From a virus, in IMG/VR virus record IMGVR_UViG_3300025141_000696, positions 1 to 24,917 of that record: a DNA stretch of 24,917 bases. One strand, given 5' to 3'. Below, piece by piece: positions 1 to 24,733 of the stretch. Position 1 is the stretch's first letter. Every line of letters begins with the position of its first letter. A program made the position numbers and the translations under genes. The notes under the pieces were generated by a model that saw only the letters and a program-made list of their open reading frames with translations, made no database searches and was not told where the DNA came from.

Positions 1-105
1 AATGTCCTGATTCCCATCTTCGGGACGCCAAAAGCTGTCCCTGTCTCCGCCGGTGCCCTTAAGGGTGGCCAGCTTCTCTCTCATCTTATCCAAGTTAATA
101 CCCAT
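1..105 (-). CDS. 32: gp32-like single-stranded DNA-binding protein, N-terminal 35 residues (runs off the left edge)
   Basis: The frame begins at ATG 105-103 and runs off the window at base 1. Its first residues, MGINLDKMREKLATLKG, followed by a DSFWRPEDG stretch, are typical of T4 gp32-type proteins, which coat single-stranded DNA during phage replication, recombination and repair. The zinc-binding core and the acidic C-terminus lie outside the window. An AGGA ribosome site sits seven bases before this ATG. An in-frame ATG at 120-118 has no ribosome site, so the inner start is chosen. It is the last gene of the leftward series and follows the tubulin-like gene by 33 bases. The family call is from memory of gp32 N-termini, and only the LAST (basic) region and the start of the core can be seen. 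Confidence 0.8.
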   Translation of the reverse strand, partial: MGINLDKMREKLATLKGTGGDRDSFWRPEDGNQDI

Positions 106-138
106 TTTGTTTCCTTTCATAGTTGGGTTAGAGTACGA

Positions 139-999
139 TCAGCCAATATCCTGATCGTCTAGTTCGTTTATATATGATTGTACCACAGAGCTATACTTAA
201 TGCAATAACAATATTTCTGATCATAGTTCGTTTGGTAGACTCCATAAGATACATTCATCTTGTCTTCTACCTTGTCTTGAACGTAATCTTTAATCTTTTT
301 AAAAAGAGTGCCGTCGCTTCTCAAGTCATCCTCATTGATACCATAATAGTATACCACATCTCGTGGCATTTGCAAGTCAAAAAACCATTTTTCTTCATTT
401 TTTTCGATGTCTAAAATCCCCACCGTTGCAATCCTCGCAATCTCATGCGGCTCCGTAAACGTACCAAGAATTGGCTCTGAATATTTAAAGACCGTCACCA
501 TGTGCAACGTGTTTACAATCGCCTGGTTGATGGTTTCATAGTAGCTAATGATGGGAACATCGCCGATGCACTTTTCGATTTCTGCATTTGATACTAGATA
601 CATGCGGTCAAACATGCCGGAGCGCGCGTACTCTTGAAATACATTGCTCACGATCCTTTCCTGTGTCGCCTCAGTTTCGCTTAGCATCGTCAAATCCGGC
701 TGGACGTACAGGATGCTCACAGAAACGCCTGAGAGTTGCTCTAGGAGCCTCAGAGCGCACCCTGAGATGTTGCCAGCACCACATAGTATGAATATAACAT
801 CTCCTGAGATGTTTTGCAAGCGTTTTTTTAGGTTTGGGAACTTTTTTTCATACTCCTCGTGTGACTTTTGTTTGGGAATACTAAAACAGTTCTCATCTTC
901 TGCAATATCATGATCAAACTTGTACACATCGTACTGAGGAAACTTAGAAAAGCAATCAGCAATTGCACAGCCTGCTCGGCCTAGGCCTATAACATTCAT
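139..999 (-). CDS. Putative divergent tubulin/FtsZ-like protein (286 aa)
   Basis: The product starts MNVIGLGRAGC, a beta-strand plus GxGxxG turn (residues 5-10) like the first nucleotide loop of FtsZ and tubulin. A hydrophobic strand DVIFILCGAGNISG (67-80) sits where FtsZ has its GGGTGTG signature, but the Gly/Thr-rich loop has become GAGNISG. A strand ending in VSN (136-138) and a helix SYYETINQAIVNTLHMV (153-169) resemble the end of the nucleotide domain and central helix H7. The rest (about 185-286) is a mixed alpha/beta segment that could be the activation domain, but no NxDxxD-type T7 loop is evident. Length is close to PhuZ/TubZ size (about 300 aa). The start at 999 overlaps the MazG stop as ATGA; a TTG five codons upstream is less likely. 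Function is unknown: a filament for DNA positioning or interference with host FtsZ are inferences. A Rossmann-like dinucleotide-binding protein is the main alternative. Confidence 0.5.
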   Translation of the reverse strand: MNVIGLGRAGCAIADCFSKFPQYDVYKFDHDIAEDENCFSIPKQKSHEEYEKKFPNLKKRLQNISGDVIFILCGAGNISGCALRLLEQLSGVSVSILYVQPDLTMLSETEATQERIVSNVFQEYARSGMFDRMYLVSNAEIEKCIGDVPIISYYETINQAIVNTLHMVTVFKYSEPILGTFTEPHEIARIATVGILDIEKNEEKWFFDLQMPRDVVYYYGINEDDLRSDGTLFKKIKDYVQDKVEDKMNVSYGVYQTNYDQKYCYCIKYSSVVQSYINELDDQDIG

Positions 1000-1307
1000 T
1001 CCTCGTCGACCCAATCTAGTACTATGTGTTGCTCAAAGGCGCCGCGACTATAGGCCTTAAGACCCATTTTGGCATAGCGATTGAGACCCATTACCCTCTC
1101 AATGGTGCGAATGACTTCCATGACGTCCGCCAACTCCTCATTCGATGGGTTCTCTTGAAACTCTTTGGCTTCTTCTACAAGCTTCTTCCCCAGATAGGTG
1201 GGCATTGCTCGGTCTTGCGCCTTGTGCCACTTACATTTCTTGCCCGATTGCTCGATGATCTCTGGAATCAGATCCCGTACGAGTTTGTTATATTTCTTAC
1301 GCCCCAT
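996..1307 (-). CDS. MazG-like / all-alpha NTP pyrophosphohydrolase
   Basis: This 103-residue protein opens with YNKLVRDLIPEII (6-18), a hallmark of small phosphoribosyl-ATP pyrophosphatase/MazG-like proteins. It carries the expected metal-binding pattern: E45, E46 and E49 in LVEEAKEF, then E58 and D61 in EELAD on the next helix. The family hydrolyses nucleoside triphosphates to monophosphates and pyrophosphate, cleaning the nucleotide pool or lowering alarmones. The gene overlaps the end of the polymerase gene by 11 bases and its stop overlaps the start of the tubulin-like gene, so the three are probably translationally coupled. Its position beside a DNA polymerase fits a role in nucleotide metabolism during replication. 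The substrate cannot be inferred. The family call is firm, the biological role is not. Confidence 0.85.
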   Translation of the reverse strand: MGRKKYNKLVRDLIPEIIEQSGKKCKWHKAQDRAMPTYLGKKLVEEAKEFQENPSNEELADVMEVIRTIERVMGLNRYAKMGLKAYSRGAFEQHIVLDWVDEE

Positions 1308-2493
1308 TAATATTTAAATCTTTCATGTCTCCGAAGTTTTTTCCGAGAGCCACGTTCACTTTATACTCTCCGAAGGGAGTTGCCCCAAACATCTTCATGA
1401 GCTCTGGGATCATCTGTCGGTCTGCGTGTTTTAAATCAATCACAATTGAGTCATGCAGCATAAAGGCCACATTGCTTTCTAGTTCTCTCAACTTGTTGTG
1501 AATCTCCACTGCTTTCGTCATGACCAAATCACTAGTTGTACTCTGTACAGTATAACTCAAAGCGTGATGATCGTCAACCTCTTTTATTGTTCTTCCAAAC
1601 TCTGTATAAACGCTTTTGCCATCCCAATACTTTTCTTTAACAAGGTTCTTATCATAAAAGACGTCGGCCTTTTTGTTTTCCCGATGAGAGTAGAGCCACT
1701 CAAAAATCTTTTGCTTGGCCTCGCGGCGATCCACTTTTCCATCATAAATATTCTTAATGTTCCACGCGTGTATGTCTCCCGTTGGCTGAGGGGTGCCTGA
1801 TAGTCCTAAAAGTGTCCTTACTTCGGCTGCGTTATAATCCAGCTCCAGAAACCAATCATTCTGCGGATGGAGACACCCGCGGAAATCCCTATGGAGGGTT
1901 AGAATCGGAAAAGTTTTCGGGTGGGTAGTTAGGCGCCCCGTCACGGTACCGAAGGGATTGTAATCACAGATGTACTGTATCTCTTGAAGTTTTCTAATAA
2001 AGTTCTTTCCCTTTACCGAAACAAGCTTCGTCATGATCGGCTCTATATCTATATTTAAAGGTTGTTTCTTAATATCTTCTAACATCTTGATCACCTCTAC
2101 CATAAAATCATGGTTTGTAGGTCGAGGATAGTTTTCTATTATGTGCTGTGTAATTTTATTCTTTGTATCACAGAGTTCGTACAGAAAGAACTCGGGGATC
2201 AGATTATAGATGCAAGTCTCGTTGAGATTTATTTGCGACGTCTGAAATGATTTAAGAAATGACCGGAGTCTCGTCGTCACCCCTTCCCACACAGGGCGTA
2301 GCTCTTCGGGGCATGCCTCAGCGAGCGTTAGGCCTCCGGCATAGATACGCGCATATTCAACATATCGATCTTTGAGTGGTTCTGAATAATGCCACGTTTT
2401 ATCCGCACTTTGGGGGAGGGGTTCGTAGCGAAGTTCATTGTTAGCATAGTAGCCCAAGCAGTCCCCTTTGTTATCCAACGTTTGAAAATACAA
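1297..2493 (-). CDS. Compact family A DNA polymerase (polymerase domain only, 398 aa)
   Basis: Polymerase I-type motifs appear in order: TGRLTT (185-190); motif A LELDYNAAEVR with D219, steric-gate E224 and R226 (216-226); motif B R256, K260, F264, Y268 with exact four-residue spacing; a TVQSTTSDL segment (315-323) equivalent to the Pol I QGTAAD region; and motif C LHDS with D348. The catalytic aspartates are present, but motif C has Ser where Pol I has Glu, and the glycine after Y268 is Ser. The first 170 residues show no 3'-5' exonuclease DxE motif and no 5' nuclease, so the enzyme looks like a bare polymerase. Spacings between motifs are shorter than in Pol I. The start is TTG, chosen because AGGAGG lies four bases upstream inside the preceding stop region and residues before it are not in frame. 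The downstream MazG-like gene overlaps by 11 bases. Role: phage DNA synthesis or repair, inferred. Confidence 0.85.
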   Translation of the reverse strand: MYFQTLDNKGDCLGYYANNELRYEPLPQSADKTWHYSEPLKDRYVEYARIYAGGLTLAEACPEELRPVWEGVTTRLRSFLKSFQTSQINLNETCIYNLIPEFFLYELCDTKNKITQHIIENYPRPTNHDFMVEVIKMLEDIKKQPLNIDIEPIMTKLVSVKGKNFIRKLQEIQYICDYNPFGTVTGRLTTHPKTFPILTLHRDFRGCLHPQNDWFLELDYNAAEVRTLLGLSGTPQPTGDIHAWNIKNIYDGKVDRREAKQKIFEWLYSHRENKKADVFYDKNLVKEKYWDGKSVYTEFGRTIKEVDDHHALSYTVQSTTSDLVMTKAVEIHNKLRELESNVAFMLHDSIVIDLKHADRQMIPELMKMFGATPFGEYKVNVALGKNFGDMKDLNINGA

Positions 2494-22873: not shown

Positions 22874-24733
22874 TTAGCCCCCGCCGCCGCCTTCTTCCTG
22901 CTGCTGTCTGTTATCTGTTAAAATAAACCAATACGCACCAGTACTCACCAACGTAACGCTCTGCGCGGAGCCGGTGATCCCGATTTCGTCCTCTGGGCCC
23001 GCTTGCTGGCTGGAACCCATAAACTGGCCGCCAGAGCCGGTAATCGTAAGTACCTCATCGCCCTGGTAGGTAGTCAAAATGTGATATGTTCTTCCAGTAA
23101 CTCCACTAGCAGCTGGGAGAGTTACGGTTGCGGCAATGCCGCCCGTAAGGTCTGCTATGTAGTGAGTTTCATCTAACGTCATACTGCCAGATATAACTGT
23201 ATAGTTGCCGGCTTGAGAACCACTAACTTGAAAGGTGGAGTTGGGCGTTGCCGTACCGATGCCGACGTAGCCGGAATCTAAAATAGTTAAATCTGTCGAG
23301 CCGTCGTCATTCTTAAAAGTGTATCCGGTATAGCCGCCCTGCGTTCCTTGAAAATCTAAATATCCAGTGCTAGTATTTCGTCCAATTTTGTAGTAGTTCG
23401 TGGGTCCGTGGCCGAAGCGCAGTTGATCGCCGGAAGCACCCCCGATAATGTCTAGGGTGGTGGCCGGGGTGGCGGTGCCGATGCCGACTCGACCAGAGCC
23501 TGTTACAAAGAGAACAGTGCCATTGGCTTTTCCGGTGACCTCAAGCAACTTTTCGCCGGATAGCGATTCAGTTGAAGCTGAAATGTGAAGACGCGATGCG
23601 GGGCTAGTCGTGCCGATGCCGACTCTTCCAGAACCGGTTGCAAATAGAAGGGGGAGACTGTTGCCGTGATCAACTCGGAATACCGCCTGGTTGTTCGAAG
23701 ATGAAACATGAAGTTGAGCACTTGGGTACAGGCTCCCCGCGATGCTAACACCTGAACCCATACCAATAAATCCAGCCGTGGTTGAACCGCCACCATCTGC
23801 GACGACCATCCTGTACCCAGCAGTACCAAGGCCGGCATCTTCAAATATTGTGAAGCCATAACCGTCGGACCCAACAGTATATGCGTTAGACTGATTGACC
23901 GCGTTGAGTTGAATGCCGGCGCTGTCGCCACCCTCGATATCGAGCATGCGCGTCGGGGCGGCGGTGCCGATGCCGACTCGACCAGAGCCTGTTACAAAGA
24001 GAACAGTGCCATTGGCTTTTCCGGTGACCTCAAGCAACTTTTCGCCGGATAGCGATTCAGTTGAAGCTGAAATGTGAAGACGCGATGCGGGGCTAGTCGT
24101 GCCCACCCCGACTTGGCCGGAACCGGTTACAAAGAGAACCGTTCCGTTCGCCGCGCCGTCGACCTGCAGAAGCGCTGCGTCACCCGAAGAGGAAACGTGC
24201 AAGCTTGCGCTTGGCGCCTGAGTACCAATGCCGACATTTCCGCCGGGTTGATCAAAGTAGTAGCCAATACCCCCCAAGCTGCCAGTAATCTGGAAGTCCG
24301 TGTAGCCGTGTTGAAGGCTAATCTGATTATAACCACCGAAAGCCCCGACCGACATGTAGTAATCCGTATCGGTGTCAGTACCGAACCTGATCGACGGGCC
24401 ATTGGCGGGCAGAAGCTCTATGGTTTTTGAATCTGATTCTACAAGAATACTGGCATCGCCTACCGACCCAGAAACATGTAACCTCTTCGAAGGCGACACC
24501 GTGCCAATGCCGACTCTATTTTCGCCGGCGTCGACAAAAAGCATGTTTGGCTCACCGCTAGATTCAACACGGAAATCGAAATCTCCGCCGGCCTCATTGG
24601 ATGTAAATGCTCCATAATTGGTAATCGTGTTGCTTCCAGAGACTATAAGGCTGCCGGTAACAGTTAGAGAGCCACTCACGCCGGAGCCACTAATGGTCGT
24701 TGTACCTTGAGATCCACTAATGATAACAGGCAT
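22874..24733 (-). CDS. Repetitive fibre-like / virion surface protein (619 aa)
   Basis: The product opens with Gly/Ser/Thr-rich strands (SGSQGTTTISGSGVSGSL) and contains seven copies of a 'VG(I/V)GTxxP' turn, usually followed by 'LHVS' or 'LHIS' strands and preceded by 'VLFVTGSG'. Similar VGIGTTxP-LHVxG repeats occur in phage tail-fibre or appendage proteins. It ends with a 'TVTLPAASGVTGRTYHI' strand domain, a 'WFILTDNR' strand and a Gln/Glu-Gly5 tail. Two 144-base exact repeats lie inside. The upstream fibre-like gene stop overlaps this start as TAATG and GGAGGA precedes it. Receptor binding is plausible but the role could also be a head or whisker fibre. No enzymatic motif was seen. Confidence 0.75.
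   Translation of the reverse strand: MPVIISGSQGTTTISGSGVSGSLTVTGSLIVSGSNTITNYGAFTSNEAGGDFDFRVESSGEPNMLFVDAGENRVGIGTVSPSKRLHVSGSVGDASILVESDSKTIELLPANGPSIRFGTDTDTDYYMSVGAFGGYNQISLQHGYTDFQITGSLGGIGYYFDQPGGNVGIGTQAPSASLHVSSSGDAALLQVDGAANGTVLFVTGSGQVGVGTTSPASRLHISASTESLSGEKLLEVTGKANGTVLFVTGSGRVGIGTAAPTRMLDIEGGDSAGIQLNAVNQSNAYTVGSDGYGFTIFEDAGLGTAGYRMVVADGGGSTTAGFIGMGSGVSIAGSLYPSAQLHVSSSNNQAVFRVDHGNSLPLLFATGSGRVGIGTTSPASRLHISASTESLSGEKLLEVTGKANGTVLFVTGSGRVGIGTATPATTLDIIGGASGDQLRFGHGPTNYYKIGRNTSTGYLDFQGTQGGYTGYTFKNDDGSTDLTILDSGYVGIGTATPNSTFQVSGSQAGNYTVISGSMTLDETHYIADLTGGIAATVTLPAASGVTGRTYHILTTYQGDEVLTITGSGGQFMGSSQQAGPEDEIGITGSAQSVTLVSTGAYWFILTDNRQQQEEGGGGG
23471..23614 (-). repeat. Exact internal repeat, copy A (144 bp)
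   Basis: By eye this copy is identical to 23960-24103, with an offset of 489 bases (163 codons). It encodes the block from 'SRLHISASTESLSGEKLL' to 'VTGSGRVGIGT'. Flanks differ, so this is a segmental duplication or conversion within the fibre-like gene. Confidence 0.9.
23960..24103 (-). repeat. Exact internal repeat, copy B (144 bp)
   Basis: Second copy of the 144-base unit, in the same reading frame as copy A. The codon-level identity, where neighbouring protein repeats differ, points to recent duplication or gene conversion. Confidence 0.9.

Follow-up and report, generated by a model that had tools for sequence, protein, structure and literature searches.

A divergent tubulin/FtsZ-like gene within a phage replication block, with predicted gp32 regulatory signals in its 3′ end

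What might a tubulin-like protein do among the replication genes of a phage? The question is raised by a viral DNA stretch of 24,917 nucleotides (IMG/VR record IMGVR_UViG_3300025141_000696, called here the window), in which a gene lies between a MazG-like ORF and a gp32-like gene (Table 1). The initial annotation rightly placed it between these two, MazG being recognized by motif only, and proposed that its product is a divergent tubulin/FtsZ homologue. Here we examine the gene and its relatives, the predicted fold and nucleotide pocket, the signals embedded in its 3′ end and the functions that its neighbourhood suggests.

The gene and its environmental relatives

The program-called ORF starts at a TTG (1014); the alignment of relatives begins at the ATG at position 999. 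The median dN/dS among nine close relatives was 0.08, indicating strong purifying selection. The protein gave no significant Pfam or PHROG match, and a single-sequence search of annotated phage records returned no credible relative (a 26.6%-identity match, E 0.3, within a tail-fibre gene was discarded). No relative was found in cellular genomes by a pattern-limited scan, or in RM378, Flavobacterium immuto phages, Microcystis Mel-JY01 and two uncultured jumbo phages by a scan run without positive control. In IMG/VR, by contrast with these collections, widening the query raised the number of relatives from 13 to 94 and then to at least 428 candidate stretches, all metagenomic and on contigs partly overlapping or repeated. 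The tubulin superfamily thereby gains a large environmental clade missed by Pfam, PHROGs and the annotated-phage search. Identity to the window protein falls to about 40% in distant clades. In one relative (L200:1869-2695) the frame is broken after 115 codons and resumes further on, which is either a real break or an assembly error.

Table 1. Position of the tubulin-like gene, its sequence features and its neighbours in the window
Feature	Position	Strand	Description
gp32-like SSB gene, 5′ part	1..105	minus	First 35 codons; sequence identity to L088 gene; leaves window
RNA hairpin, 8 bp, covarying	135..158	minus	ACGAUCAG GAUAUUGG CUGAUCGU; spans stop codon; predicted gp32 5′ leader
Tubulin/FtsZ-like gene	139..999	minus	286 aa; ATG at 999, stop TGA 139-141
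P2, promoter-like	177..205	minus	Codons 265-275; TTGCAT-17-TACAAT, extended -10
P1, sigma-70-like promoter	348..375	minus	Codons 209-218; TTGCAA-16-TATACT, extended -10
T7/H8 region	433..483	minus	Residues 173-189; short loop into strand, no NxDxxD, no invariant acid
Asn138 to start of H7	526..588	minus	Residues 138-158; Asn138 after strand S6, Tyr153/Tyr154 and Asn158 starting H7
T4-type loop GAGNISG	760..780	minus	Residues 74-80, after a strand; position conserved
T1-type loop GLGRAG	970..987	minus	Residues 5-10; matches FtsZ GVGGGGxN
MazG-like small ORF	996..1307	minus	Motif only (KLVRDLIPEII, EExxE); overlaps tubulin-like gene start
Short DNA polymerase A-like gene	1297..2493	minus	398 aa; PF00476 2.4e-10, phrog_17 2.4e-13; upstream, same apparent operon

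Predicted fold, nucleotide pocket and the T7/H8 region

With nine sequences, AlphaFold gave a model of pLDDT 69.7, for which the best 50 Foldseek matches listed were already TubZ, FtsZ and tubulin. With 52 sequences the model reached pLDDT 82.6 and pTM 0.82, and its strands and helices followed an FtsZ-like order. Compared with the PDB, the best match was an FtsZ (E 1.1e-11; query TM about 0.57-0.69 over about 300 columns), and the best 50 matches listed were all FtsZ or TubZ, full-length and including the C-terminal domain. The N-terminal GTPase domain, H7 and the C-terminal domain, by which superfamily membership was judged, were all found in the model, and in comparison with FtsZ, PhuZ and TubZ the GTPase domain and H7 matched at the fold level. 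A plain Rossmann NAD(P) dehydrogenase, the outcome that the initial annotation had named as speaking against its proposal, did not emerge and was ruled out by the PDB matches listed.

Among viral models (BFVD), the best Foldseek match was a protein annotated as FtsZ from an uncultured Caudovirales phage (9.8e-12); Noxifer PhuZ (8e-6) and a second phage protein with the annotation ‘cell division protein’ also matched. The two annotated uncultured-phage proteins, A0A6J5RW92 (452 aa, E 1e-11) and A0A8S5UFG9 (387 aa, E 2e-9), are the best viral structure matches; they are larger than the window protein, with 13-16% identity. The earlier claim of novelty for a homologue outside the PhuZ group of jumbo phages was therefore too strong, since phage proteins that are annotated as FtsZ or cell-division proteins and are not PhuZ exist.

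Profile comparisons independently agreed with the fold, more clearly for PhuZ than for FtsZ. Against seven PhuZ, hhalign scored 39.1 (E 1e-4, probability 58%) over an alignment spanning T1 to T4 only; this is about 9 sd higher than the mean of 40 column shuffles (mean 14.3, sd 2.8) and above all of them (maximum 23.9). Against eight FtsZ, T1, T4, Asn and H7 were aligned in correct register with a score of 24.1 (shuffle maximum 22.6), a comparison that by itself is not significant (probability 2%). PF00091 gave no match in the window protein, nor in four relatives' contigs in a search where 13 of the 14 control genomes were positive. The HMM search proposed at first thus gave a signal with the PhuZ profile, but neither with PF00091 nor, significantly, with FtsZ alone. 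Judged from predicted fold and profile, the protein almost certainly belongs, though divergent, to the tubulin/FtsZ superfamily, the AlphaFold and profile results being evidence on homology only.

The elements first read from the sequence were all present: a GxGxxG first loop, a strand running into GAGNISG, a strand followed by an Asn and an H7-like helix, which in the model covers residues 150-172. Conservation was followed in 64 non-redundant members. In the T1 loop, G5, G7 and G10 are invariant wherever the residue is present. The T4 loop had been called degraded; it is altered, but not destroyed. The signature (G/A)GG(T/S)G(S/T)G is here a degenerate GxGxx(S/T)G that is conserved in place (G74 64/64, G76 61/64, S/T79 63/64 and G80 62/64). 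Further along the pocket, N138 and N158 are each kept in 63/64, Y153 in 64/64 and Y/F154 in 60/64. According to secondary-structure position and spacing, from which these equivalences are drawn, N138, Y153 and N158 are placed like N165, F182 and D187 of Escherichia coli FtsZ, with an aromatic-to-N/D spacing of five in both. We take the tubulin equivalents, with guanine-contact roles, to be N206, Y224 and N228, where a spacing of four would correspond to Y154.

Because T1, T4, N138, Y153/Y154 and N158 are kept almost universally, the protein probably binds a guanine nucleotide. One lineage (L275:2066-2899) has kept position, fold and overall similarity and has lost the pocket (GLGEMGS, V138, R158), so that nucleotide binding may be non-essential there.

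The region following H7 is of another kind. In the model, a 15-residue loop leads straight into a strand and H8 is absent. The lack of a T7 NxDxxD, noted at the outset, was confirmed: none occurs among the members inspected, and no acid is invariant in this region in the 64 non-redundant members. Acids at 175 (83%) and 186 (66%) are common, and a remodelled catalytic site is conceivable for that reason. Since the face of the subunit bearing the catalytic acid is gone, the usual GTP hydrolysis would be impossible, and as read from these alignments the protein very likely does without conventional assembly-coupled hydrolysis. Conventional treadmilling is unlikely as well, because a neighbour's active site cannot be completed without the T7 face; an analogy is the D198A mutant of PhuZ, which polymerises at each induction level tested (PMC10299810).

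These features set the family apart from known tubulin-like systems. FtsZ, the best structural match, is alike in T1, T4, guanine-contact positions, H7 and C-terminal domain order; it differs in that identity is about 12%, GGGTGTG has become GxGxx[S/T]G, NVDFAD and H8 are lost, and PF00091 is silent. PhuZ (phiKZ gp039) is likewise a phage tubulin-superfamily protein of about 300 aa and gives the profile signal from T1 to T4. However, PhuZ keeps T7-region acids (D201 and D204 are invariant in the seven aligned PhuZ), whereas in the window family no T7 acid is invariant, and both H8 and a PhuZ-like tail are missing. PhuZ also belongs to nucleus-forming jumbo phages; judged by gp23 capsid and PolA/DnaE/UvsX/gp32, the phage type seen here appears to be a different one. 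As to TubZ, the partition tubulin of plasmids and phages, TubZ-Bt is among the best structure matches, but nothing of the tubR/tubC type was noticed among the neighbouring genes read, and the T7 acid is missing here.

Predicted promoters and an RNA hairpin in the 3′ end of the gene

Over most of the gene synonymous divergence is close to saturation (0.75-0.91); two stretches are much lower, codons 199-220 (0.37) and codons 265-286 (0.26). The predicted promoter P1 lies in the first of these stretches and reads TTGACA-16-TATACT in most relatives. Among 88 members, 92% reach 9/12 or more at its site, whereas elsewhere in the gene this share never exceeds 15% per bin. The number of promoters in the window taken by itself does not stand out from shuffles (4 found, 2.9 expected), and support for P1 comes from its conservation. 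The P1 element lies in a different reading frame in the distant relatives L159, L195, L269, L271 and L275; it is therefore the DNA, and not the peptide, that is conserved, and P1 dictates much of the VVYYYG motif. A stand-alone C-terminal fragment expressed from P1 was considered and rejected; P1 was given to gp32 because no conserved internal Met was seen in the alignment.

The second stretch holds the promoter-like P2 and the hairpin. In the latter, 99.6% of 248 cells pair, changes on both sides are found in all 8 pairs, and covariation scores 0.679, compared with 0.282 for shuffles. Rfam gave no match for the hairpin and gp32 leader, and inspection by eye for a loop-leader pseudoknot gave no consistent pairing. 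In L069, L144 and L186, gp32 is located about 1-1.5 kb from the tubulin-like gene, and promoter and hairpin stay by gp32; in L069 and L144 the promoter ahead of gp32 reads instead TTGACA...TATAAT. The promoter and hairpin cassette of L159 is likewise upstream of gp32. Because the two elements follow gp32 where the genes are apart, we assign the cassette to gp32, which seems to be expressed and controlled through P1, P2 and the hairpin; the hairpin leader is a candidate translational operator or mRNA stabiliser. The gene 32 operator of T4 and RB69 is comparable as a folded RNA in the gp32 leader, in T4 also overlapping an upstream ORF (PMC535899); it differs from the simple covarying 8-bp hairpin found here, to which no pseudoknot could be added by eye.

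Two other readings of the tail were rejected. About ten relatives read DD*DIC there, and amber recoding was dismissed because the Gln-to-stop change is a compensatory hairpin change. An FtsZ-type tail peptide was rejected as main cause of the conservation, since synonymous sites are themselves constrained (0.26). The VVYYYG motif and the C-terminal tail, among the most conserved motifs of the family, call for caution, as both are strongly shaped by promoters and RNA hairpin and not by protein function alone.

Replication-gene neighbourhood and candidate functions

Among 80 loci, every contig that extends far enough has a PolA-like gene on the upstream side and gp32 (PF08804) on the downstream side, which bears out the coupling to a polymerase-containing replication set suggested by the initial annotation. 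The gp32 homologue of a 170.9-kb relative (L088) matches PF08804 (2.1e-13) and phrog_1192 (3.8e-22). UvsX/RecA, 5′-3′ exonuclease and DnaB helicase lie downstream of gp32 in relatives, and gene order is unchanged at about 40% identity. The MazG-like ORF, without Pfam or PHROG match in the window, is missing from several clades, where PolA abuts the tubulin-like gene; in L005 the PolA stop and the tubulin-like start share one base. In the reverse test, starting from gp32, the tubulin-like gene was found in 68/68 loci having upstream sequence, the five others, whose sequence starts at gp32 or no more than 70 bases from it, being excluded. From this linkage and the PolA/gp32 context, the tubulin-like gene behaves as a core gene of the replication block. 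The linkage shows co-expression, not physical interaction.

The same 170.9-kb relative also has a Pol III alpha (DnaE)-like polymerase (L088:696-4136; phrog_405, 1e-218), which raises the possibility that the replicase is not the PolA-like protein. In L269, L271 and L274 an open frame of about 597 codons replaces the PolA-like gene.

Given this genomic context, we lean towards a replication-associated role, and an accessory or scaffold of replication or recombination is favoured because the gene is linked to PolA, gp32 and UvsX. The protein would be expressed together with the phage polymerase and SSB from what looks like one operon, where the start of its gene overlaps the end of the preceding one. 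It would hold GTP or GDP through the T1, T4, N138, Y153/Y154 and N158 positions, without ordinary hydrolysis. In this nucleotide-bound state it would most likely assist or scaffold the phage replication complex, perhaps in the form of static oligomers that do not treadmill, and would not act as a dynamic spindle. The 3′ third of the gene would have a second job, carrying two promoters and the gp32 5′ leader hairpin. This combination, a hydrolysis-deficient tubulin relative that binds a guanine nucleotide, that is a replication accessory and bears a 3′ gp32 cassette, is the best overall explanation, although we hold it with evenly balanced confidence. With a clade that is tied to replication genes and no longer has the motif for assembly-driven GTP hydrolysis, tubulin action outside filaments becomes testable. 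A bolder version, rather doubtful at present, would make the tubulin fold a core nucleotide-switched component of the replication machine whose own coding sequence also holds the gp32 promoters and leader; if true, a tubulin fold would serve DNA replication itself, rather than division, segregation or positioning.

The initial annotation had offered a cytoskeletal homologue or a dead paralogue poisoning host FtsZ; both stay at the level of speculation, as neither polymerisation nor FtsZ binding can be read from the sequence. Filaments that position or cage replicating DNA like PhuZ or TubZ, slow or static without T7, seem unlikely. The nearest sequence signal is PhuZ, the nucleotide face is conserved, and T7-mutant PhuZ (D198A) still forms filaments (PMC10299810). 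However, the standard longitudinal contact needs the bottom face (T7/H8), which here is shorter and, in distant clades, variable, and there is no PhuZ-type C-terminal tail, the last residues being of low confidence and constrained as DNA by the gp32 leader.

That the protein is a decoy against host division, a one-ended tubulin able to cap the T7 face of host FtsZ with its own nucleotide face, is distinctly improbable. A kept nucleotide face with a lost T7 face is the geometry expected of such a cap, and phages do attack FtsZ (lambda Kil, T7 Gp0.4, T5.008), but these inhibitors are not described as tubulin homologues, the relatives all sit in the replication operon and the sequence is nearer PhuZ than FtsZ. 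Linkage would speak more for a replication role than for the poisoning of host FtsZ. That the pocket holds another nucleotide or cofactor, the fold being reused as a small-molecule or dNTP-related enzyme with MazG and polymerase, is very improbable: a MazG-like gene adjoins in many clades, a Rossmann-type N-terminal half could take other ligands and Pfam YjeF_N gives a weak match (E 0.16), yet guanine-contact positions are kept in 63/64, the tubulin-like gene stays where MazG is lost and the FtsZ match extends through the C-terminal domain.

As to the phage that carries the gene, the window encodes a gp23-type capsid (PF07068, 3.3e-72) and a contractile tail sheath (phrog_23, 6.8e-65), and its relatives carry gp23 capsid and T4-like genes. 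The capsid is nearest to records from an uncultured jumbo phage, Flavobacterium immuto phages and Microcystis phage Mel-JY01, with Rhodothermus RM378 lower. By capsid matches alone, the window probably derives from a Far-T4-like phage as understood in PMC4360716, where tubulin and FtsZ go unmentioned in the text. At the other end of the window (22874-24733, minus strand), a repetitive fibre-like protein carries many GSGRVGIGT-type repeats.
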